Below, piece by piece: positions 2,792-26,052 of a stretch of DNA of 27,152 nt. Below the pieces are notes generated by a model. That model was not told the DNA's origin. It made no database searches and was given only the letters and a program-made list of their open reading frames with translations. Position 1 is the first letter of the stretch. The number at the start of each line of letters is the position of its first letter. The translations under genes and the position numbers were made by a program. This stretch comes from a virus. The stretch is from the IMG/VR virus record IMGVR_UViG_3300031539_000259, positions 1 to 27,152 of that record; one strand, 5' to 3'.

Positions 2792-3554
2792 TCATGTATT
2801 CGATCATATCGAAATCACGTTACTTGAACATTTTGGAAATAGACCGGAATATGACAAGACGCTTGTTGTACTAGGTTATAACGTATTACCTTCTTTAGAT
2901 TTTCTTAGGCAGAAATACCCCGGTTTCAAAATTGTAATATATCAACTTGAACAATTGGCTAAGGACTCCCCGTGGGTAAATAAAGGTTGTTATGAAGTAT
3001 TAAAATCTGCTGATGAAATATGGGATTATGACCAAGGAAACATAAAGTGGATACAGACCAATTATAAGCTAAAAGTTGATAAATTCTTACCCTTAATGTA
3101 CACTAAAGCACTCGAAACAATACCAGTTGTTAAAGAACATGAATGTGATATAGATGTTTTATTTTATGGATATATACACGAAAGAAGAGCACGATATCTT
3201 ATTCAGTTACAACATATAATGGCTGGAAAATTTAAAGTTTTTGATTTATATGGTGTTTGGGAACAAGATCTAGATGAATACATAAAAAGGTCTAAGATCA
3301 TTGTTAATATCAGGTCTAGGGATCACGGAAGACAAGAACAACCTCGTATATATTATCCTGTTATCAATGGGAGATGTGTTTTAAGTGAAAAAAGTCCAAT
3401 AAACTATTTTGGAGATGCCATAGTAGAATCAGAATATCTAAAAATGGTAGATAAGACCATGGAACTACTTAAAACGGGCGAATGGCTTGATGTAGCGTAT
3501 CAATCAAGTGAAAAGTATAAAATTCAGTCTGAAAAATATGAAATGTTATTATAA
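2772..3554 (+). CDS. GT-B-like glycosyltransferase
   Basis: This 260-residue protein looks like a compact GT-B type transferase. Residues 30-90 contain the pattern of a Rossmann-like N-domain (KTLVVLGYNVL, FKIVIYQLEQL and ADEIWDYDQGN). The C-domain carries IDVLFYGYIHERRARYL followed by SKIIVNIRSRDHGRQEQPRIYYPVINGRCVLSE in two parts, resembling the nucleotide-sugar binding region of group 1 transferases in which a conserved Glu precedes an R-I or R-L pair. It overlaps the GT-A gene by 20 bases, so the two enzymes are likely made together and may act successively on one glycan. The exact family and the sugar are unknown. Confidence 0.6.
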   Translation: MKIYKFNHVFDHIEITLLEHFGNRPEYDKTLVVLGYNVLPSLDFLRQKYPGFKIVIYQLEQLAKDSPWVNKGCYEVLKSADEIWDYDQGNIKWIQTNYKLKVDKFLPLMYTKALETIPVVKEHECDIDVLFYGYIHERRARYLIQLQHIMAGKFKVFDLYGVWEQDLDEYIKRSKIIVNIRSRDHGRQEQPRIYYPVINGRCVLSEKSPINYFGDAIVESEYLKMVDKTMELLKTGEWLDVAYQSSEKYKIQSEKYEMLL

Positions 3555-13356: not shown

Positions 13357-14040
13357 ATGTTTAGATTAGATAAAACAAAGAAATTAGCCGATGAGGTTCA
13401 AGCATTGACCGAGGGACAGGAGGTTGATTCTCAATTAGGAACTAATAATATAGCCACCCCTACAGATGATGGAATAGAAGATTTTAATAAAGGGGCTGAA
13501 TTTGGATATCCCCATCAAAATCATTATATTGTTGAGAGTAGAGTAGGCGATTATCTTAAAGATAAATTTGGTAAAAAGAAACCTGCCGGAAAGACAACAG
13601 TGATACATAATTCTGATGGCAGTCAGTCTGGTAGTTTCATACCAAATCCTCCAGAAGATATAGATGAACCAAATCCTTTTATAAGACCAGAAGTCACAAA
13701 AGAGAGAGCGGAGACGGCTAATAAAGAAGATATGAGAGCTAAATTAGAACGCGCAGTGACTTACTATGCCATAGATAAGTTAAATATAGATATGATAGAG
13801 TACGGAAATCTTATGCATGTTAAAAAATATAACCCAGAAAAACTTAAGAAGGTTAAAGAGAAAAAAAGCCTTGCGTATATTTCAGACGACGAGATTTTAA
13901 ATGCTAGGGAAATATGGGAAAAATACCCAGAATATCATGAACATAGAAACGACATAGTACAAAAAGATACCACAAAATATGTTCCTGAGTATCGCAAGGA
14001 AGAAAACTCTGAAACCCCCGAAAAAAATAGAAGACCATAA
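13357..14040 (+). CDS. hypothetical protein behind a late-type promoter (227 aa)
   Basis: This is an unknown hydrophilic protein of 227 residues. The N-terminal half is low in hydrophobics and rich in Asp, Gly, Pro and Asn (IPNPPEDIDEPNPFIRPE near 99-116), probably extended. Residues about 120-205 are charged and helical. The C-terminus is again Glu, Asn and Lys rich. TAAGGA precedes ATG 13357. It is transcribed alone between a TATAAACTA motif and the hairpin at 14075, so it is a likely late gene, perhaps a virion or assembly component. No homologue is recognised. Confidence 0.65.
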   Translation: MFRLDKTKKLADEVQALTEGQEVDSQLGTNNIATPTDDGIEDFNKGAEFGYPHQNHYIVESRVGDYLKDKFGKKKPAGKTTVIHNSDGSQSGSFIPNPPEDIDEPNPFIRPEVTKERAETANKEDMRAKLERAVTYYAIDKLNIDMIEYGNLMHVKKYNPEKLKKVKEKKSLAYISDDEILNAREIWEKYPEYHEHRNDIVQKDTTKYVPEYRKEENSETPEKNRRP

Positions 14041-14063: not shown

Positions 14064-14073
14064 CTTATATTTA
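14064..14073 (+). promoter_or_regulatory. putative early/middle promoter core CTTATATTTA (gp45)
   Basis: ATAATTCTTATATTTA lies directly upstream of the hairpin at 14075. If the motif acts near -10, the RNA for the clamp gene would begin at or inside that hairpin. Confidence 0.55.
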
Positions 14074-14118: not shown

Positions 14119-15051
14119 ATGAACGCTGATATAAAATTTACACCAGAATATATGGAAGTATTGAATAATATGCTTAAAATTGTTGCCGATCTACCCAATA
14201 GGCGACATGCTTTAATATTCAAAAAAGATGGTCTATACCTACATTCGGCTATGGCTTTAGACACTTTGGTACACACAATCACTACCGAAAAAAATATAAA
14301 TTTCGCCCCAGATGAAATAGGAATAACTAATCTAAGCGAATTTATTAATTACTCAAATGCAATCGGATACCCGGAAAAAGAAACAAAAATAAGCCTGATA
14401 GAGGAATTGACTACTAAAAGAGAAAAGATAAGCTCGTTTAAGTTTGAAGGGGAACACGCAACGTATAGAATGCCTGTTGCCCAATTAGCTGCATTTAGAA
14501 GGGATTACGATAAGAAAGTTCCAATATCAAGGGATAAGGATCCTATGGACTTGGTGGGTAAATTCTATCTAGACGTGGATGACCTTAAACGTATTGTAAC
14601 TGATATACAGCTGATGGGAAAATCAAATTCATTTGGTTTATCAGTTGCGAATGATAAAATAACCATGTATATGTCAAATATACAAAATCATCAAGTAACT
14701 AAGGTAATTGACGAAACTAAGGCAAAAGTATTTGATAGTTATAGCACTACTGCACATGAACAGGATAATAATCATCCGTTTAAATTATTCCCTAATAAAA
14801 TATTTAGGTATATGTCCTATTTTGGGTGTGATTTTGAAGTAGAATTAAGAGTAATGAAAAGAGCAAAGGGTGATATAATGGCCGTTAAATGTTTTGGTGT
14901 TATGGATTTTATTGAACAGAAAAAGACTAAATCTATGAAAAAAGCTGATAATATAGCAGATGTGCCGAAAGAACCAGTAAACGTATTTATTGGAACCCAA
15001 GAAAATTCTGCACACGCAGCTTCAGCAAATATGCTCAAAATAGTCAGATAA
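14119..15051 (+). CDS. 45: gp45-like sliding clamp (PCNA fold)
   Basis: The layout follows T4 gp45. A first beta-alpha-beta half (residues 5-120: FTPEYMEVLNNMLKIV, DEIGITNLSEFINYS, TKISLIEEL) ends in FKFEGEHATYRMP. A second half (148-262: FYLDVDDLKRIVTDIQLMGK, FGLSVANDKITMYMSN, then VELRVMKRAKGDIMAVKCFG) aligns by eye with the gp45 segment that begins at its second helix (AEDLQQLL). It would trim to a ring that tethers the polymerase; in T4 the clamp also activates late promoters. At 310 residues it is longer than T4 gp45 (228), with a C-terminal extension of about 40. It is monocistronic, behind an early-type motif. A second clamp-like gene lies at 17489. Confidence 0.68.
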   Translation: MNADIKFTPEYMEVLNNMLKIVADLPNRRHALIFKKDGLYLHSAMALDTLVHTITTEKNINFAPDEIGITNLSEFINYSNAIGYPEKETKISLIEELTTKREKISSFKFEGEHATYRMPVAQLAAFRRDYDKKVPISRDKDPMDLVGKFYLDVDDLKRIVTDIQLMGKSNSFGLSVANDKITMYMSNIQNHQVTKVIDETKAKVFDSYSTTAHEQDNNHPFKLFPNKIFRYMSYFGCDFEVELRVMKRAKGDIMAVKCFGVMDFIEQKKTKSMKKADNIADVPKEPVNVFIGTQENSAHAASANMLKIVR

Positions 15052-15074
15052 TAATTTCATCAAAACTAGATGTA

Positions 15075-15083
15075 TATAAACTA
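15075..15083 (+). promoter_or_regulatory. putative late-type promoter core TATAAACTA
   Basis: TGTATATAAACTATATATAA contains the core, 44 bases before ATG 15128. The placement makes the GTG at 15095 an unlikely start, because a transcript beginning just downstream of the motif would leave it almost no leader. Confidence 0.6.
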
Positions 15084-15127
15084 TATATAAATTAGTGTAT
15101 ATAGTTTCATTTAAGTGGGTTAAAAAC

Positions 15128-16750
15128 ATGAAAAAAACCGAATTATTAGAAGCCTTCAAATCAATTCAAAAAGATATTGGTCCTAAAAAAGTCACAAATC
15201 TTGCGAATAAAGATGTTCTTGTGAAAGAGATGAAGGGCATGACCACCAAAAAAACAGATAAAAATACAGAAATTATTTCTGCTCTTTCTGATATTAGCAA
15301 GGTCATGTTAAAAAGTAAATTAGAATCCGAATGGAAGCCCACTCGAACATCGATTAGTGATTTATCACAACGGTTTTTGGTAGAAGCAGAAATGACTGGT
15401 AAAAGACAACCAAATGCTTTCAGATTAAATTTACAGCCTATAGTTATGGATAATACCCATGCTAAATTTAGTGCTACCCGCGCAGATAAATCAGCAATTA
15501 TTGAACTTTTATATCCTAACGCAAATGGTAAAATCACTGTTAAAGTCCAATTGGATGGATCAGAAGATAAATTAGTTGAAGTTGGTTTAGAAGACGAAGC
15601 TTATACAGTTAATTTTGGTGAATATATCATACATCTTATTGATGAATCTATAGCAGATAGTCGTAATGCCGAACAGGCTGATCTAAATGATTATATGTAT
15701 GGAAATAATGAAACCCCAGAAAAACCCAATTCAGAAGCTCCGATGGGAAGCGTTAATGATAGAGGGTCTAATTCTAATATATCAGTGGGTGGCCCTATGT
15801 GGGAATCTGATAGAAGATCTATGAATGAACTGCTTTCGTTAATAGAAGCAGATGATGAAGAACTCGACGTAGAAGAAGATGACACAAGTGATGTCGAAGG
15901 CATTGTTGACGAAGCAGGAGCGGAAGACGAAGACGCAGGAGACGCAGGAGACGCAGGAGGTTTTGGTGAAGAAGATTTTTCAATGGATGCAAGCGGCGAC
16001 ACAGAAACTTCAGACGCGTTTGATAATGATTTTGGATTCGGTGGTGGAGGGGGTAGTGATTTTGGCAGTGGTGGCGGTGGTGAGGATTTTGGCGGCGCTG
16101 AGGAAGGAGGAGATGTAAATGCTGAAGGTGGCCCCTCTGGAGAAGAAACTGAATTTCTAACATTCAGAGATAAAACCGATTGGTTACAGTCTTCTATGGA
16201 TACCATGCAAAATCTAATTTCACAAGCTATGGGCCAAAAGATGCAAGAAGGTAAAGGTGTTATTCTTACATCTGATGAGATCATGAATGGTACTGCAGGC
16301 ATGAGAAATGTTGATAAACCAGTTGATATAGTTGATAAGTTTCTAAAAATTTATCCAGAACTAGATGAAATTGATTTGACTGAAGAACATTTGGAACAAA
16401 TAGAACAGAAATTAGACCTTAATGATAATCAGTTTGACGCATGGCTTGCTCAGAAATTACCAGAACTTAGGGGCGAAGATGAAGTAAATGAAACATTGGA
16501 TAACGAAATGTTTGATGACTTTAAGCCTATGGGTGGTGAAGAAGAACCTACAACAGAAGAACCCGGAATGGAAGGAGATTTTGAAGATTTCATGGACGAG
16601 ACTGCTCCAGAAGAAACTGAGACCCCGGTTGAAAGAAAAGAAGCCGAGATAGAACTGGGTTTACCATCAGAAACAAACGAATTTTCTGAAATAGGCGAAG
16701 GAGAAGCCGAAGAAGTCGAAGAAGAACCTAAAGAATCTAAAGAAAAATAA
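15128..16750 (+). CDS. large acidic hypothetical protein with Gly-rich centre
   Basis: The start is ATG 15128 (540 residues); the frame is open to GTG 15095, which is probably not used. Residues about 1-190 form an apparently folded domain (helical start, then strands such as AFRLNLQPIVM, GKITVKVQL and YIIHLIDES). The centre is extremely Asp/Glu/Gly rich, including three GDA repeats encoded by tandem 9-bp units (15932-15958) and a Gly run interleaved with DFG. A helical segment (TDWLQSSMDTMQNLISQAM and onward) follows, then another acidic tail. Such composition suits a prohead core or scaffold protein, or another abundant assembly protein, but no family is recognised. It is bounded by a late-type motif and a terminator. 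Confidence 0.7.
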   Translation: MKKTELLEAFKSIQKDIGPKKVTNLANKDVLVKEMKGMTTKKTDKNTEIISALSDISKVMLKSKLESEWKPTRTSISDLSQRFLVEAEMTGKRQPNAFRLNLQPIVMDNTHAKFSATRADKSAIIELLYPNANGKITVKVQLDGSEDKLVEVGLEDEAYTVNFGEYIIHLIDESIADSRNAEQADLNDYMYGNNETPEKPNSEAPMGSVNDRGSNSNISVGGPMWESDRRSMNELLSLIEADDEELDVEEDDTSDVEGIVDEAGAEDEDAGDAGDAGGFGEEDFSMDASGDTETSDAFDNDFGFGGGGGSDFGSGGGGEDFGGAEEGGDVNAEGGPSGEETEFLTFRDKTDWLQSSMDTMQNLISQAMGQKMQEGKGVILTSDEIMNGTAGMRNVDKPVDIVDKFLKIYPELDEIDLTEEHLEQIEQKLDLNDNQFDAWLAQKLPELRGEDEVNETLDNEMFDDFKPMGGEEEPTTEEPGMEGDFEDFMDETAPEETETPVERKEAEIELGLPSETNEFSEIGEGEAEEVEEEPKESKEK

Positions 16751-16771
16751 AAAAACTATATATTTAATATT

Positions 16772-16800
16772 AAAGGGCCATGAAAAAGGCCCTTTTTCTT
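16772..16800 (+). terminator. intrinsic terminator
   Basis: AAAGGGCC (16772-16779) pairs with GGCCCTTT (16788-16795) around an 8-base loop, followed by TTCTT. It closes the transcript of the acidic protein gene and lies 11 bases before the next promoter-like motif. Confidence 0.85.
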
Positions 16801-16811
16801 TGGTTAAAAAA

Positions 16812-16821
16812 CTTATATTTA
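16812..16821 (+). promoter_or_regulatory. putative early/middle promoter core CTTATATTTA
   Basis: GGTTAAAAAACTTATATTTA lies between the terminator and ATG 16827, with only 5 bases between the end of the motif and the start codon. If the motif acts near -10, the message would be leaderless or nearly so. Confidence 0.5.
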
Positions 16822-16826
16822 TATGT

Positions 16827-17492
16827 ATGAAAAAAGAATTAGAAGAAAAGCTGTATAAAGAATTTCCGTTACTCTATGCGGAACATAAATTACCAATGTC
16901 CCATACATGTATGTGTTGGGGATTTGAACATAGTGATGGTTGGTATAATTTGATTTATAAATTGTCTTCTAAATTAGAACGCCTGATAAAGAAACAAATG
17001 GATGAAACTAAGATAGCTGATAAAGAATGTGTATGTGGATGTAAGCTAACTGATCATAATTATTCTATGAATAATACATGCACCACAGTACATAAAATAT
17101 CGTATTATCCTTTTAAGAATAATTGGTTCACAGTGCCTAAATCCAAACCATTAATGATATATAAGAGCATTTTACAAAAATTTAAATTATGGATTAATAT
17201 GTTATGTAAATTTATATCACCTGTAATCTATAAAAAGGTTAAATGCAGCTGTAAAGGATATGAAGAATATCACGCGACCGCATCACAAGTAAAAGAAAAA
17301 TTCGGTACGCTTCGTTTTTATGGTAATAATTTTACAGATGAGATGGATAAATTAGTTGATGCAGCCGAACGTAAATCAGCAAAAACATGTGAATATTGCG
17401 GTAAGCCCGGAAAGCAAAGAAATGGTGGTTGGGTACGTACTCTTTGTAATACATGTAATAAAACCCTTGATAAAGAAGAGGAGATTGAATGA
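16827..17492 (+). CDS. phage zinc-ribbon protein of unknown function (221 aa)
   Basis: This resembles a phage protein type that I recognise by pattern but not by function: an N-terminal CMCWGFEHSDGWYNLI block (28-43), a central ASQVKEKFGTLRFY block (152-165), and a C-terminal zinc ribbon CEYCGKPG with CNTC (Cys188, 191, 207 and 210). Extra cysteine clusters at 68-72 (CVCGC) and 140-142 (CSC) may bind further metal. The conserved-looking N-terminus supports ATG 16827 over any later start, although no ribosome binding site precedes it. Its last four bases overlap the start of the second clamp-like gene, so the two are coupled. It contains no membrane segment that I trust. Confidence 0.72.
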   Translation: MKKELEEKLYKEFPLLYAEHKLPMSHTCMCWGFEHSDGWYNLIYKLSSKLERLIKKQMDETKIADKECVCGCKLTDHNYSMNNTCTTVHKISYYPFKNNWFTVPKSKPLMIYKSILQKFKLWINMLCKFISPVIYKKVKCSCKGYEEYHATASQVKEKFGTLRFYGNNFTDEMDKLVDAAERKSAKTCEYCGKPGKQRNGGWVRTLCNTCNKTLDKEEEIE

Positions 17493-18733
17493 GTACAGAA
17501 TTAGAAGTAAAGAAACCTGCCATAATGGATATTAGTGCATATAGCAATATCCAACAAAAGTTAAATTTTTTAGCACAAGGGTTGAGGAATTTAAAAGATG
17601 CCGAAAAGCAATTAATTTATATTGAATGTTATACAAAACCCGCTGAAACAGATGAGGAAGAAGACATTAATATAATTCGTTTCAGTACAGATGTTTCTAT
17701 TTGGACAGAAATATCCCCTTTAAATAAACACACAACCCCAATACTGGAAAAATCAATTGCTGTTAATTTATATGACCTTTATAATGTTGTACAAAATTCT
17801 ATTTCAGATAGTACTGAATTTATTTCTTTTAAACTTGATGAGACAGATACTAGCAATCCTAATCTTGTGATATCCGGTTTTTATAATGAACTACGGGAAT
17901 ATGATGAACTGGAAGTGAGTTTAAAGATTCATGAGATGGAATTTCCACGAAGAGAATTTAAATCATCAAGGGATGCTGATTTGATTGCAATGTTTGAATT
18001 AGACCATTTATCATTATTTAATATTCTTCGTATGAACATTGAACATAAAACAGAAGGCGTTAATGTTGTTATAAATGATAAAAAGATATCATTCCAAACA
18101 GATTATAATGGACTAAAAACTTCATTGATTATTAAAAGCTACCGAGATCAGTTATTCTTCAAGGATTTTACTGTGTTCATACCATTCTATTTTTTGAATT
18201 TAATGGCGGGTACGGGAGATATAGAAAATGTCAAATTTCATGTATTCAATGATTCAGTGATAGTAGAGGCGGGTGGATATAATTTTATATATAAAATAGA
18301 AAAAGAAGTCGAGGGATTTAAAATATCAGATGATGAACTTGAAGATTTTTGTGTAGTTGACCCTAAGAATGCCGAAGCTGTTATGACGTTGGTAAACAGG
18401 GTTAATAAACCTGCTCCTATTTCGGTTGCGAGTATATCTAAATTAGAAGATCAGATGGCAGAAATAAAAACTGGATTAGATGGTAGATATAAAATATCTG
18501 TTTTATTAGAATGCATAATGCAAGCAGAAACACCAATTACAATTGATACCGATATATTTCAATGGATGGTTACTAATACACAAGTAGATGGTATTAAAAT
18601 ACAGCGGTATGCTCATACTAATAACATATATATTTCATACGAGAACGAGCTATTTATAAAAAAGATCCAATATATACATGATATTTTCACAGATTATAGA
18701 ATGGTAGAAACTACTAAAAAGTTGGAGGCGTAA
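17489..18733 (+). CDS. second, DnaN/beta-like sliding-clamp candidate
   Basis: The 414 residues repeat a clamp-like order. Residues 89-104 (SIAVNLYDLYNVVQNS) and 142-153 (EVSLKIHEMEFP) mirror the end of beta-clamp domain 1. Residues 168-272 mirror a whole domain: MFELDHLSLFNIL, VNVVINDKKISFQTDY, DFTVFIPFYFLNLM, ENVKFHVFNDSVIVEAGGYNFIYKI. Residues about 330-400 look like a degenerate third domain (PITIDTDIFQWMV, VDGIKIQRY, NIYISYEN). Bacterial DnaN has three domains in about 366 residues. This differs from the gp45-like gene at 14119 in length and domain count. ATG 17489 overlaps the previous stop (ATGA) and follows a good GAGGAG site. The early-type motif at 16812 would drive it. The fold call rests on pattern only. 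Confidence 0.45.
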   Translation: MSTELEVKKPAIMDISAYSNIQQKLNFLAQGLRNLKDAEKQLIYIECYTKPAETDEEEDINIIRFSTDVSIWTEISPLNKHTTPILEKSIAVNLYDLYNVVQNSISDSTEFISFKLDETDTSNPNLVISGFYNELREYDELEVSLKIHEMEFPRREFKSSRDADLIAMFELDHLSLFNILRMNIEHKTEGVNVVINDKKISFQTDYNGLKTSLIIKSYRDQLFFKDFTVFIPFYFLNLMAGTGDIENVKFHVFNDSVIVEAGGYNFIYKIEKEVEGFKISDDELEDFCVVDPKNAEAVMTLVNRVNKPAPISVASISKLEDQMAEIKTGLDGRYKISVLLECIMQAETPITIDTDIFQWMVTNTQVDGIKIQRYAHTNNIYISYENELFIKKIQYIHDIFTDYRMVETTKKLEA

Positions 18734-20453: not shown

Positions 20454-20463
20454 CTTATATTTA
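20454..20463 (+). promoter_or_regulatory. putative early/middle promoter core CTTATATTTA (polymerase)
   Basis: TAAAAATTCTTATATTTA lies immediately after the terminator, and only 14 bases separate it from the polymerase ATG. Those bases contain ACAGGAGA, so the leader would be little more than the ribosome binding site. Confidence 0.6.
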
Positions 20464-20477
20464 GGACAGGAGACTCT

Positions 20478-23369
20478 ATGCCCGATAATTCCCCCGAAAA
20501 TCGCCCAATGTATACTGCTATTCACCATGATAGGTTTAATGACCTGATATTTATATGGTATGCAGATGGCACAAAAAACGGGTTTAGGGTTAAACACCGT
20601 TCATACACTCCTGTCCAAGGACAAAATGATGCAAAACCTTCTGGAATGGTAGATATATTTGGTAGGGAACTATATGAAATCATAGTTACGGGTAAAGAAG
20701 AAATGGACATTCGACAATATAATATGGGTGCACATAATGATATTGCCGAATGTGATATAGATTTTAGAACCAGATGGTTAGAAGAACATTACAAAAAAAT
20801 GGATGATATACCAGTAAACGTATCCGATTTCAATATATGCTTTCTTGATATAGAGGTCTCGGCTACCGATAGGTTCCCCCATGCGGATCAGGCAGATTAT
20901 CCCGTAAACTGCGTTACCATACATTTTACTAAAACAGGGAAATATTATGCATTCGGCCTGAACAGAGAAATTAAACCAGAACTGACAGAAAAATTATCTC
21001 AATCCAATTGTGAATATATAAATTGTCCAACAGAACGAGGTTTATTAACTGAACTATTTACCAAAATCGGAGAAGGTGGGGCTGATTTCTTATCTGCATG
21101 GAACGGGCATTACTATGATTTCCCTTATTTAGTTAATAGAGCAGCAAAATTAAATGTTGACATTAAGTTAATGAGCAGACTCCCTCAACAATATAAAACT
21201 GCATATGTAAGTAAACGCGACAATAATTTAGTTCTGGGCGGAACTGCAATGGTGGACTTTCTTCTGTTATACAGAAAGTTTACCATTAAAGAACAAGATG
21301 ATTTTAAACTGGATACCATAGGTAAACTTGAAACGGGTGAACATAAAGCACCTTTACCCGATAAATATAAATCATGGGTTAATTATTGGGATGATTGGGT
21401 ATGGTATAACTTTAAAGATGTAGAACTGATGGTAAACATCGAAAAAGCATGTAAGATGTTTGATACTACTATACATGCATGTGCTGAGGCTAGAGTTCCT
21501 TTTGAGAGTATATTTGAAACCAAGAAAATGGAAGTAGGATTTATTCTGAACTATTTACATCGCGAAGGAATTGCGATGCCCCCATTAAGAGATAGACCAA
21601 GGCAGTCTTTCGCTGGGGCTTATGTGTATGCTAAGGTCGGATACTACACTTATTTAGTATCATATGATTATGGTTCTATGTATCCTTCATTTATCATGGG
21701 AGCAAATACTTCTCCTGAAACTAAAGTTATTTTGAAGAATGGTGAATATTTTGATGCAAATATGAACCGGGTGACTGACGTAGACCCTTCAACTCTTGTG
21801 AGAAGTCCTTTAAAAGTCTTTAAAACTAATGGAGATGGTAGTGAAGAAATAGATTATGAGGTATTTTATCGAAGCGACAAAGTAGGTATCATACCACGAG
21901 TTACTGAGAAGATATTCATTGGTCGTAAAGGACATAAAAAAACACAACAGCAGTTTGAGCGCGAAGGGGATTACGCACAGGCATCTGTATATGAAATGAA
22001 GCAAAAGACCTATAAAATTTTTGGTAACGGTCTTTATGGTCTATTAGGCAATCCTTATTTCCAATTCTATGATCTAGATAACTCAGGTACTATTACAGCA
22101 TTTGGCGTTGAACTAATTACTTATACGATTAAACATCTTTGTCGATATTTGGAAGGGGAATTTAAGGTAGATCCAAGGTTTATAGATGCATTCGGCGCAC
22201 CCCCTAACATAGACGAATCTCTCGAAGGAAGTTTTGAAGAAGTAAATGAAGATACAGGCAAAGTAGATATCCATTATAATAGACTGTCTCATGGTGATAC
22301 TGATTCTTTCTTTGTTAAATATCAAGACATATACTTACCATTCATTGATAAAGTAGATAAAGAAGTTGAAGTCACCGTAGTTAAAGGGAATAAGATTATA
22401 TATAAAACGTCTTATCAATTAGATACAGAAGAGAAAGCTTCCAAAAAAGATTTTAATAATAAATGCATAGAATATTGTGAATCGTGGACTAAAATTGATA
22501 ACGAACACAAAGCTAAAGCGTTTAAAGATGGAATGTATATAGAAGGCGAATATAGGGTTTTCTATAACAGACACTGCCTAACTGATTTATGTAGGGTATT
22601 AGATGCTGTATTAATGGAAGATGTTCTTTCTGGTATAATGCAGAAATTCGCTGATAAATGGAATTTTATGAAGAATACATTAACTCTTAAAAGGGAAAAA
22701 TGTATAACTCAGGCTATTGTCACAGCTAAGAAAAAATACATATGTAACGTAGAAAGTAACGAGGATATTAAAATTTATGACCCAGATAAACGGTTTAAAG
22801 TCACTGGATTAGAAATTGTTAGAAGTTCTACTACCCCATTTTCTCGTAAGTTTGTTTTGAATTGCGTTAAAGAACTTCTTAATACAATGGATAAGTCGCA
22901 TATACGCGATGAATATATTAAGATAAAAACTGATTTCTTTGCCATGGCAGAGGAAGGTAAAATATATGACTTGGCTATTCCATCTGGTATTAAAACAGAT
23001 CCACCTGATTATGATGATATGTTAAAGATGACCGAGGAAGATAGGAAAAAAATAGATTGGCGAGTACGTGCGGGGGCGGCGTGGAATTTTTTAATCAGAA
23101 ATGATGAAATATTAAAAGATGAAATGTACGAACCTATATATGGCGGAGCAAAAGCAAAGTTCCTAAAGCTGGCACATAATGAGTTTGGAATTAACTCACT
23201 TGCCTTTATCGGAGACGAATGCCCTCAGAGGATAGTAGACAGATTTAATGTAGACTGGAATGCTCAATGGGAAACTGGATTTGCAAATGTAATGAATAGA
23301 CTTTTCGATGCGGTAGGATGGGGCGAAGTTGAATACGATGAACGCGATTCTATGATGGAATTGCTTTGA
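20478..23369 (+). CDS. 43: family B replicative DNA polymerase (gp43-like)
   Basis: This is the leading- and lagging-strand polymerase with proofreading. Exo I is FLDIEVS (Asp124, Glu126), Exo II is WNGHYYDFPYL and Exo III is YNFKDVELM. Polymerase motif A is SYDYGSMYPS (Asp397). Motif B is KIFGNGLYG (Lys513, Asn517, Tyr520), with Gly where most family members have Ser. Motif C is HGDTDS (605-610, Asp607 and Asp609). All catalytic acidic residues are present, so the enzyme should be active in synthesis and exonuclease. It has 963 residues against 898 in T4. The C-terminus ends in SMMELL, where T4 gp43 carries its clamp-binding peptide. ACAGGAGA precedes ATG 20478. Confidence 0.97.
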   Translation: MPDNSPENRPMYTAIHHDRFNDLIFIWYADGTKNGFRVKHRSYTPVQGQNDAKPSGMVDIFGRELYEIIVTGKEEMDIRQYNMGAHNDIAECDIDFRTRWLEEHYKKMDDIPVNVSDFNICFLDIEVSATDRFPHADQADYPVNCVTIHFTKTGKYYAFGLNREIKPELTEKLSQSNCEYINCPTERGLLTELFTKIGEGGADFLSAWNGHYYDFPYLVNRAAKLNVDIKLMSRLPQQYKTAYVSKRDNNLVLGGTAMVDFLLLYRKFTIKEQDDFKLDTIGKLETGEHKAPLPDKYKSWVNYWDDWVWYNFKDVELMVNIEKACKMFDTTIHACAEARVPFESIFETKKMEVGFILNYLHREGIAMPPLRDRPRQSFAGAYVYAKVGYYTYLVSYDYGSMYPSFIMGANTSPETKVILKNGEYFDANMNRVTDVDPSTLVRSPLKVFKTNGDGSEEIDYEVFYRSDKVGIIPRVTEKIFIGRKGHKKTQQQFEREGDYAQASVYEMKQKTYKIFGNGLYGLLGNPYFQFYDLDNSGTITAFGVELITYTIKHLCRYLEGEFKVDPRFIDAFGAPPNIDESLEGSFEEVNEDTGKVDIHYNRLSHGDTDSFFVKYQDIYLPFIDKVDKEVEVTVVKGNKIIYKTSYQLDTEEKASKKDFNNKCIEYCESWTKIDNEHKAKAFKDGMYIEGEYRVFYNRHCLTDLCRVLDAVLMEDVLSGIMQKFADKWNFMKNTLTLKREKCITQAIVTAKKKYICNVESNEDIKIYDPDKRFKVTGLEIVRSSTTPFSRKFVLNCVKELLNTMDKSHIRDEYIKIKTDFFAMAEEGKIYDLAIPSGIKTDPPDYDDMLKMTEEDRKKIDWRVRAGAAWNFLIRNDEILKDEMYEPIYGGAKAKFLKLAHNEFGINSLAFIGDECPQRIVDRFNVDWNAQWETGFANVMNRLFDAVGWGEVEYDERDSMMELL

Positions 23370-23420: not shown

Positions 23421-24116
23421 ATGACACCAGATGAACGTAAAAATAAATGCAAGACAAGAAACGTGGTATTATTTGATGGAGAAAAATTTTATAGATTCAC
23501 CGTTAAAAACGGAGAATTTTCTAAAATAATAACTGACATCATAACCAATATATTAACCATGGATTTTTCAAATGATACAATTAAAAATTTTACGGTAATA
23601 GTGGATGGTTATAAGCCATATAACTTACCATTTGATAAAGAAAAATTATTGAAAATAAAAGAAGATTGGAAAAATACTAAGATACCAATAAATCAGACTG
23701 TAGAAGAAAAAGATGTATCGGTATGTACAACTAATGGCCTGCACGTATACGATCAAAAGGTAATCAAAAAAATTAAAATTTTAACTGATATAATGGATTC
23801 AGATAAACCGTTTGATAATGTGTTGAGTGTATCTTATTTAATATTTGATGTTGACGGAGAAGAGTTTAAGGTACCAACAGAAAAAGTTAAAATAGAACGC
23901 TTATGGCTAGGGTTAATGCTGGGAAATGATGCTGGGTTTTTTGACCTAGACGATTTAAACAATGGTGATATATTGATTGAGAAGATAAAAACCATCGAAT
24001 ATAATTATGAAGAAAAACCATTTAAGGAAAAATCCCAAAGAATCCGAAATTCTATTGACCTTTGTAATGCAATTGTAGCGGAAGATAATAGTGAATTAGA
24101 TAGAAAAACTGCCTAA
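23421..24116 (+). CDS. hypothetical protein after polymerase (231 aa)
   Basis: This is an unknown protein of 231 residues, with a good AAAGGAG site before ATG 23421 and its own early-type motif. It is mixed alpha/beta (FTVIVDGYKPYNL; VSYLIFDVDGEEFKVPTEKV), soluble, with only two cysteines and no recognisable catalytic motif. The location between polymerase and clamp loader suggests DNA metabolism by association only. It ends 5 bases from the convergent minus-strand gene at 24122, with no terminator seen between them. Confidence 0.7.
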   Translation: MTPDERKNKCKTRNVVLFDGEKFYRFTVKNGEFSKIITDIITNILTMDFSNDTIKNFTVIVDGYKPYNLPFDKEKLLKIKEDWKNTKIPINQTVEEKDVSVCTTNGLHVYDQKVIKKIKILTDIMDSDKPFDNVLSVSYLIFDVDGEEFKVPTEKVKIERLWLGLMLGNDAGFFDLDDLNNGDILIEKIKTIEYNYEEKPFKEKSQRIRNSIDLCNAIVAEDNSELDRKTA

Positions 24117-24560: not shown

Positions 24561-24570
24561 CTTATATTTA
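24561..24570 (+). promoter_or_regulatory. putative early/middle promoter core CTTATATTTA (gp44)
   Basis: TATAAAAATTCTTATATTTA, 26 bases before ATG 24597, with AGAGGA as ribosome binding site. It would drive the clamp-loader operon. Confidence 0.6.
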
Positions 24571-24596: not shown

Positions 24597-25634
24597 ATGG
24601 ATCTATTAACTAATCCAGATGCGGTTATTCAAGCAGCTGAGGAGCAGAATAAACTAGGTAAAGAGATAACTGAGCTAAAGAATAGCGCATGGACTGAGAA
24701 ATATCGACCTGCTAAATTAGCTGATGTTATATTACCTGACGAAATTAAGAATAATATTAATTCCAAGTTTGAGCGAAATAGTTTCCAAAACATGATATTT
24801 CACTCTGGAAGTCCCGGAACTGGAAAAACAACCGTTGCTAGGGTAATTCCTGCAGAGCATGGGTGTGATTATATGTTTGTTCGTTCTGCTTCAGAATCCC
24901 GTCTAGATTTGATTGATGCGATTGCATCCTATGGTATGCAAATGAGCGTCAACGAGAAGCCACGCTTCGTTGTTATTGATGAGGGCGACAGAGTGCCCGG
25001 AAGTAATATAAACGCCTTCTACGCGGCCCTACAGCCCCTTATAGAGGCCACTACAGACACGTTAAGGTTTATTATCACATGTAACCATCTCCACTTGATT
25101 CCTGAGGCTGTTCGCTCTAGATGCATACCCGTTTCTTTTGCCCATAATGACAAATCTATCAAAAAAGCCATGTGGAAACGACTAAATGAAATAGCCAAGA
25201 TAGAAACTGATAAAGTTGGTGGAAAAGTAAATGAAGATACAATGATTCAGATAGCTAAAATCAATTTTCCTGATATGCGAGCTATGTTAAATCAAATGCA
25301 ATATAATTTTGATAGCCATAACGGTTCTATAGAAGGCGATATATCAACAATTACCTTAGACCATATCAAGGCATTATGGGAACTTATCAAAGAAAATGAT
25401 GATATTCTGCCTGTTAGAAAATATTACACCGAATATATTTCAGATTTAAATGGTATATTTCTTCCTTTATTGAATTATATAGTGGATAATGATTATGAGT
25501 TTTCTAAAAAACATTTACTTTCATTAGGTAAAATAGTCTCAGATCATCAATTTATGGCAGCATTTGATAGGATGGAACCTGAGGTCAATATTTTTGGGAT
25601 GATATCTAAGGTTATTAGGTTGCTTCATGGGTAG
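24597..25634 (+). CDS. 44: clamp loader ATPase subunit (gp44-like)
   Basis: This AAA+ ATPase opens the sliding clamp and loads it at primer-template junctions. WTEKYRPAKLADVILPDEIK (32-51) is the standard clamp-loader opening. Walker A is GSPGTGKTT (71-79), Walker B is VVIDEGDR (125-132), with sensor 1 in FIITCNH and the SRC arginine-finger motif at 174-176, followed by a helical lid and collar domain. The 345 residues compare with 319 in T4 gp44. The first 30 residues form an extra Gln/Glu-rich helix. AGAGGA precedes ATG 24597. The gp62-like gene begins inside its last codons (8-base overlap), as in T4-type 44/62 pairs, where coupling sets the 4:1 subunit ratio. Confidence 0.93.
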   Translation: MDLLTNPDAVIQAAEEQNKLGKEITELKNSAWTEKYRPAKLADVILPDEIKNNINSKFERNSFQNMIFHSGSPGTGKTTVARVIPAEHGCDYMFVRSASESRLDLIDAIASYGMQMSVNEKPRFVVIDEGDRVPGSNINAFYAALQPLIEATTDTLRFIITCNHLHLIPEAVRSRCIPVSFAHNDKSIKKAMWKRLNEIAKIETDKVGGKVNEDTMIQIAKINFPDMRAMLNQMQYNFDSHNGSIEGDISTITLDHIKALWELIKENDDILPVRKYYTEYISDLNGIFLPLLNYIVDNDYEFSKKHLLSLGKIVSDHQFMAAFDRMEPEVNIFGMISKVIRLLHG

Positions 25635-26052
25635 ATTTAATCCGTTCGATTTTTTAAGCGGAAGAACTAAATGTATTCCTCCTACTCAGGAAGAACAAGA
25701 ATCATTTGATTTTTGGAGTACATTAGTGGCATTTTCAATGGTACCCGGTTCAATGCCTGTATGTGATGCCATTAATACGATAGGATTTTCTAGATTACCC
25801 AAAAAGTTTCAATGTATGGCATTTACTCAACTGGACGGAAAATCCATGTATGGTAAGTGGCAAAAAACTAAAACCAGTAAGACAAAATCTAATAAAGATT
25901 ATGCCAATAAAATATGTAAACTATTCGATTGCTCAGAAAATGAAGCAAAATCGTTAATTGATAATAAAATATTTGATGAAAAACATATAAACCATTTATA
26001 CGAAATGGCATATGAACCAGATAAAGTTAAAATAAGCAAAGCGAAGAAATAA
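25627..26052 (+). CDS. 62: clamp loader small subunit (gp62-like)
   Basis: The 141-residue product lacks ATPase motifs. Residues about 44-78 (MPVCDAINTIGFSRLPKKFQ, then FTQLDGKSMYGKWQK) match the T4 gp62 segment that reads MPAVYAMNLIG ... RGKRYGKWAK in the same order. A following segment (KICKLFDCSENEAKSLI) fits the gp62 KLLAKRYQVNTNDAINY region. gp62 is the non-ATPase fifth subunit that completes the loader with four gp44. It is shorter than T4 gp62 (187 residues). Its ATG overlaps gp44 by 8 bases, and its stop shares one base with the next start. Confidence 0.75.
   Translation: MGRFNPFDFLSGRTKCIPPTQEEQESFDFWSTLVAFSMVPGSMPVCDAINTIGFSRLPKKFQCMAFTQLDGKSMYGKWQKTKTSKTKSNKDYANKICKLFDCSENEAKSLIDNKIFDEKHINHLYEMAYEPDKVKISKAKK

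Follow-up and report, generated by a model that had tools for sequence, protein, structure and literature searches.

The window, that is, the whole stretch of DNA analyzed here, is the 27,152-nt IMG/VR virus record IMGVR_UViG_3300031539_000259 (positions 1 to 27,152; features lie on the plus strand unless noted). Matches to Pfam and PHROGs identified genes for UvsX, a DnaB-type helicase, a gp32-type single-strand binding protein, a gp61-type primase, a family B polymerase, and a gp44-type clamp loader. A preliminary description had singled out two further open reading frames as encoding different sliding-clamp-like proteins, and both were found, at 14119-15051 (310 aa; clampA, a probable two-domain gp45/PCNA-type sliding clamp) and at 17489-18733 (414 aa; clampB, a predicted three-domain DnaN-fold sliding clamp). 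ClampB is overlapped by 4 nt by a codirectional zinc-ribbon gene (16827-17492), which probably starts at ATG 16827 and not at the TTG of a longer open reading frame, because a promoter-like motif at 16812 falls inside the longer frame. In the related record L089 (1-1596), the zinc-ribbon homolog is split by about 386 residues resembling an intein (KEKFG^CYDTKTEV ... VWCGN^SLRFY); the window copy has no intein-like insert. A DnaJ-type protein is encoded at 124-948, with zinc-finger and C-terminal parts and no visible N-terminal J domain.

The family B DNA polymerase (gp43-type; 20478-23369) matched PHROG 262 (E = 1e-125) and Pfam DNA_pol_B. Its C-terminal tail, DERDSMMELL (23337-23366), is a candidate clamp-binding peptide similar in character to the SLDFLF end of T4 gp43, and its form is conserved in the relatives (DQTDLMMELF, DERDTMVDIL, DERDTMVDLL, and DQTEMMCDLF), so that a short hydrophobic-acidic polymerase end was found in all five phages. 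Farther downstream lie the gp44-type large subunit of the clamp loader (24597-25634; PHROG 168, E = 1.7e-50; AAA, E = 1.6e-10) and a 141-aa gene (25627-26052) that follows gp44, is conserved in relatives, and had no family match in Pfam or PHROGs. The single loader pair previously proposed for the window is thus secure for gp44, and the probable small subunit is assigned through its gp62 position. Each phage relative searched has one gp44-type gene.

Since the window polymerase is less than 30% identical to those of the best isolates listed, the phage represents a deep, divergent T4-type branch. One record, 3300031565_000788 (L002 and L003), is near-identical to the window. Its tail sheath protein (L003, 10416-13679) has 1,087 aa, of which only the final 300 or so match known sheath proteins; a large insertion is therefore likely. 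L089 has 58% polymerase identity and 44% clampB identity to the window. The polymerases of L095 (a 112-kb record) and of L096 and L097 (164- and 54-kb records, which are the same phage or nearly so) are 53 to 55% identical to that of the window. A more distant polymerase (42%; L110) was found on JAFXNA010000004.1 (L110 and L112 to L115), a 317-kb contig binned in a sheep rumen Bacteroidaceae metagenome-assembled genome (MAG). Given its T4-type phage replication module, this contig probably represents the genome of a jumbo phage that was wrongly assigned to a bacterial bin; the MAG has one gp44-type gene on the phage contig and two weaker matches on another contig. Isolate phages, Bacteroidales genomes, and GTDB contigs beyond one yielded no further clampA or clampB homologs.

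Searches with the clampB sequence against Pfam, PHROGs, NCBIfam, and the PDB found no match, and the DnaN families of Pfam and NCBIfam were absent at E ≤ 1 for clampB and its homologs. In comparisons with profiles of 21 gp45 and 18 Bacteroidaceae DnaN sequences, clampB scored at the background level given by other window proteins as controls. An AlphaFold2 monomer model from a five-row alignment (mean pLDDT, 75.1; pTM, 0.61) nevertheless has three tandem domains, each made of two β-α-βββ units (domain 1, about residues 9 to 160; domain 2, about 165 to 269; domain 3, about 284 to 395), plus an extra C-terminal helix (397 to 413). The full domain that had been delineated by eye at residues 168 to 272 corresponds to domain 2 of the model. 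With this model, the best 50 Foldseek rows from the PDB were all bacterial beta clamps or complexes containing one (E, 5.5e-16 to 1e-14), and the best viral-library matches were phage DnaN proteins. VIA structural alignment with DnaN gave a Z score of 25.8 over 348 of 414 residues (model range, 10 to 401; 11% identity), with an rmsd of 6.6 that we read as reflecting domain orientation in the model; gp45 and PCNA are missing from the VIA list, an absence that carries no meaning. Identity to the matched DnaN structures was 6 to 14%. Because the DnaN fold was obtained from a five-row alignment of a protein without recognizable relatives, we take the fold as established by prediction, and clampB is almost certainly a DnaN-fold protein. 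The order of beta-clamp strands and helices first noticed in the sequence is therefore borne out from end to end, and the predicted structure is that of a DnaN clamp, not of a protein lacking a clamp fold or belonging to an unrelated family. ClampB is a DnaN-like clamp by modeled structure and falls outside the described DnaN families by sequence.

The identity of clampA is less firm. For clampA and its homologs, searches of Pfam, PHROGs, NCBIfam, and PDB sequences gave no credible match, and the clampA profile gave no signal against gp45 (21 phage sequences), Bacteroidaceae DnaN (18 sequences), or clampB, with other proteins of the window serving as controls. The AlphaFold2 model of clampA, built from a three-row alignment, is of low confidence (mean pLDDT, 33.3). 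The elements predicted in it run helix, three strands, strand, helix, three strands, and again helix, three strands, helix, strands, an order that fits that expected of two clamp domains. When this order was compared with single clampB domains, the score was reached by 5 to 50 of 1,000 shuffled orders, and for the whole clampA order against clampB it was reached by 37 of 2,000; the scores against clampB domains were about equal to those of clampB domains against one another. Foldseek placed PCNA first (best E, 0.01), with PCNA, 9-1-1, and beta chains in about 20 of the top 50 rows, although matches from low-confidence models such as this one are unreliable. We consider clampA to be probably a sliding clamp of the two-domain gp45/PCNA type; as to the gp45 layout originally proposed for the 14119 product, the element order in the low-confidence model fits, and gp45 profiles give no signal.

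These weaknesses bear on a different interpretation, in which clampB is the sole sliding clamp, a DnaN-fold ring having replaced gp45 in the lineage of this T4-type phage, and the 14119 product is another conserved replication protein. The poor clampA model and the blindness of the gp45, DnaN, and clampB profiles to it are in line with this, and T4-like jumbo phages without a recognizable gp45 have been described, namely, RaK2 (PMC3622015) and CBB (PMC5259590). That the clampA element order fits two clamp domains, that clamp chains, even with so weak a model, make up about 20 of the top 50 Foldseek rows, and that clampA is more conserved than clampB (see below) speak against it, and we regard it as rather unlikely.

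Both clamp genes share a promoter-like motif with replication genes. The motif CTTAYATTTA has eight matches in the window versus 0.72 expected, and seven of the eight are on the plus strand, 15 to 58 nt upstream of uvsX, gp32, clampA, the gene overlapping clampB, the polymerase gene, the gene at 23421, and gp44. The clampA copy, CTTATATTTA (14064-14073), lies 55 nt before the gene, and the copy before the zinc-ribbon-clampB pair (16812-16821) lies 15 nt before ATG 16827; those of the polymerase gene and gp44 are at 20454-20463 and 24561-24570. The early suggestion that both clamp genes stand behind one early-type motif was thus confirmed. A second motif, TATAAACTA, has six matches (0.87 expected), at 3550, 13325, 15075, 19572, 26926 (minus strand), and 27003, and precedes a gp25-region gene, the genes at 13357, 15095, and 19633, and one minus-strand gene. 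It is also enriched in the relatives (in part of the 317-kb contig, 41 matches versus about 2 expected), and its sequence is similar to that of the T4 late promoter, given in PMC5259590 as TATAAATA. From the placement of CTTAYATTTA before the clamp genes and of the TATAAACTA-type motif before others, both clamp genes belong to the early-type class.

Homologs of the gp55-type late sigma factor were found in three relatives (L160, 6805-7314, minus strand; L173, 18805-19323, plus strand; L188, 7629-8291, minus strand). In T4, the hydrophobic C-terminal tail of gp55 (SPSLDFLYEAND) binds gp45. The first two of these homologs clearly lack it: the gp55-type proteins of L096 and L095 have the C termini KQAKWSTSTDD and NQARWDGNSGE, respectively, without a hydrophobic clamp-binding tail. 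According to a review, gp55 proteins of the T4 family have kept this tail (PMC2988020). Clamp-coupled late transcription through a gp55 tail is therefore not supported by the sequences of L096 and L095, and these tailless sigma factors give no motif support for a transcription role of either ring.

Two independent environmental phages, L095 and L096, also have both clamp genes beside pol-gp44-gp62, with the gene order as in the window (gp32-gp61-12229-13357-clampA-15095-clampB-19633-pol-gp44-gp62; the match to 13357 in L096 is weak). ClampB homologs are present in L089, L095, and L096, and clampA homologs are present in L095, L096, and the 317-kb phage contig; the L089 record begins downstream of the expected clampA position. 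On the 317-kb contig, clampA has a 389-aa gene on one side and gp61 on the other, and clampB was not detected there by sequence. This 389-aa gene (P0002; L112, 10787-11953), between gp32 and clampA, looks clamp-like with three domains by eye; we do not claim it as a third, three-domain clamp, as its E value with the gp45 profile (0.005 to 0.009) was equaled by an unrelated 139-aa open reading frame. Matches of Tenacibaculum phage PTm1 ORF-083 to clampB and ORF-282 to clampA were weak and short, failed profile comparison, and were put down to chance. PTm1 also has an unannotated 279-aa gene (166719-167558) between the pieces of its split DNA polymerase. Judging by length, this gene probably encodes A0A5S9ERV6, a clamp-like match in BFVD, which would make it an unrecognized clamp in an isolate.

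Between L096 and L095, amino acid identity is 81% for the polymerase, 74% for clampA, 70% for gp44, and 56% for clampB, and dN/dS is about 0.27 for clampB and 0.07 for clampA, rough ratios since synonymous changes are near saturation. Both clamps are under purifying selection and both genes are maintained; clampA follows the core replisome more closely, and clampB evolves faster. The faster change of clampB (56% versus 70 to 81% for the replisome core) would suit a decoy, already raised in the preliminary description, or a poison. In this scenario, a mimic of the beta clamp would titrate away or block the clamp-binding proteins of the host (polymerase III, mismatch repair, and DnaA regulation are the envisaged targets) and so stop host replication, with clampA alone serving phage replication. 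The shared fold of clampB and the host clamp agrees with this idea, as does the charge of its ring helices, about neutral (the six sum to +1, versus about +6 in E. coli DnaN, from sequence). By-eye estimation, however, also gives a low value for the ring helices of T4 gp45, which is a functional clamp, so the charge says little, and we rejected it as a sign of a decoy that does not bind DNA. Moreover, clampB has no profile similarity to Bacteroidaceae DnaN, shares its promoter-like motif with pol and gp44, stays upstream of pol in L089, L095, and L096, and is under purifying selection, all of which make a decoy improbable.

Known closed clamp rings contain six clamp domains, and three-domain DnaN-fold protomers close as dimers. 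ClampB should accordingly form a dimer, and clampA, if it is the two-domain gp45/PCNA-type protomer that we consider most likely, should form a trimer. A heteromeric ring of clampA and clampB, another early suggestion, might be expected of two genes in one module behind the same motif, yet 3a + 2b = 6 is solved only as 2 + 0 or 0 + 3; three-domain and two-domain subunits cannot sum to a mixed ring of six, and such a ring is very improbable. With a mixed six-domain ring excluded arithmetically, two separate sliding clamps are the best reading, and one that we hold with modest confidence. Given the promoter-like motif that they share with pol, gp32, uvsX, and gp44, both should be made together with the replication machinery, and the single gp44/gp62-type loader would load both rings. 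ClampA, being better conserved, probably acts as the principal processivity ring of the T4-type polymerase, and clampB would probably have a second task, in lagging-strand synthesis, repair or recombination, or a replication-transcription link; these roles could be reversed. Such a division of labor, which we infer along with the clampA fold, ring stoichiometry, and loading, is the best reading of the pair. Whether both proteins work as rings on DNA seems to us evenly balanced, and the complete arrangement, one replisome with a dimeric three-domain and a trimeric two-domain clamp served by a single gp44/gp62-type loader, is a tentative proposal that falls slightly short of even.

If true, a T4-type lineage would have two rings of different symmetry and one visible loader, which must open both, while the polymerase and other partners must choose between them; the symmetry specificity of the loader and the choice of partners would become directly testable. 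The clampB case also shows that a beta-type clamp can be present in a T4-type phage without being recognizable from its sequence, and since such clamps escape sequence searches, profile-based clamp inventories are incomplete.

Two clamps are unusual in a T4-type phage because T4 manages with one ring, gp45, for both replication and late transcription. Text searches of papers available without subscription found no report of two clamps in one phage, which does not establish priority. Like T4 gp45, clampA belongs to a T4-type replication module, and its predicted elements follow the order of two clamp domains, but it is longer (310 versus 228 aa), has no profile similarity to gp45, and is encoded apart from gp44. 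A clamp of the PCNA superfamily has been described in T4-like jumbo phages (PMC7824862). ClampB resembles the bacterial beta clamp DnaN (E. coli 2POL, Rickettsia 6PTV, and B. subtilis 4TR6) in its three tandem domains, with a whole-length match at a Z score of about 25. It differs from DnaN in the low identity and lack of a family match noted above, in the extra helix that follows the last strand of the model, and in its genomic setting, a T4-type replication module that includes a family B polymerase. A DnaN fold in a phage genome is also known from phage-encoded DnaN proteins (for example, A0A6J5KWN4, Achromobacter phage Motura, and Pseudomonas phage PaBG). More than one clamp gene per genome is likewise familiar from eukaryotes, which have PCNA plus 9-1-1. 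Metallosphaera sedula builds a PCNA heterotrimer from multiple PCNAs in one genome (PMC4894655). In both of these systems, the clamp subunits share one two-domain architecture, whereas the two clamps predicted here differ in domain number.
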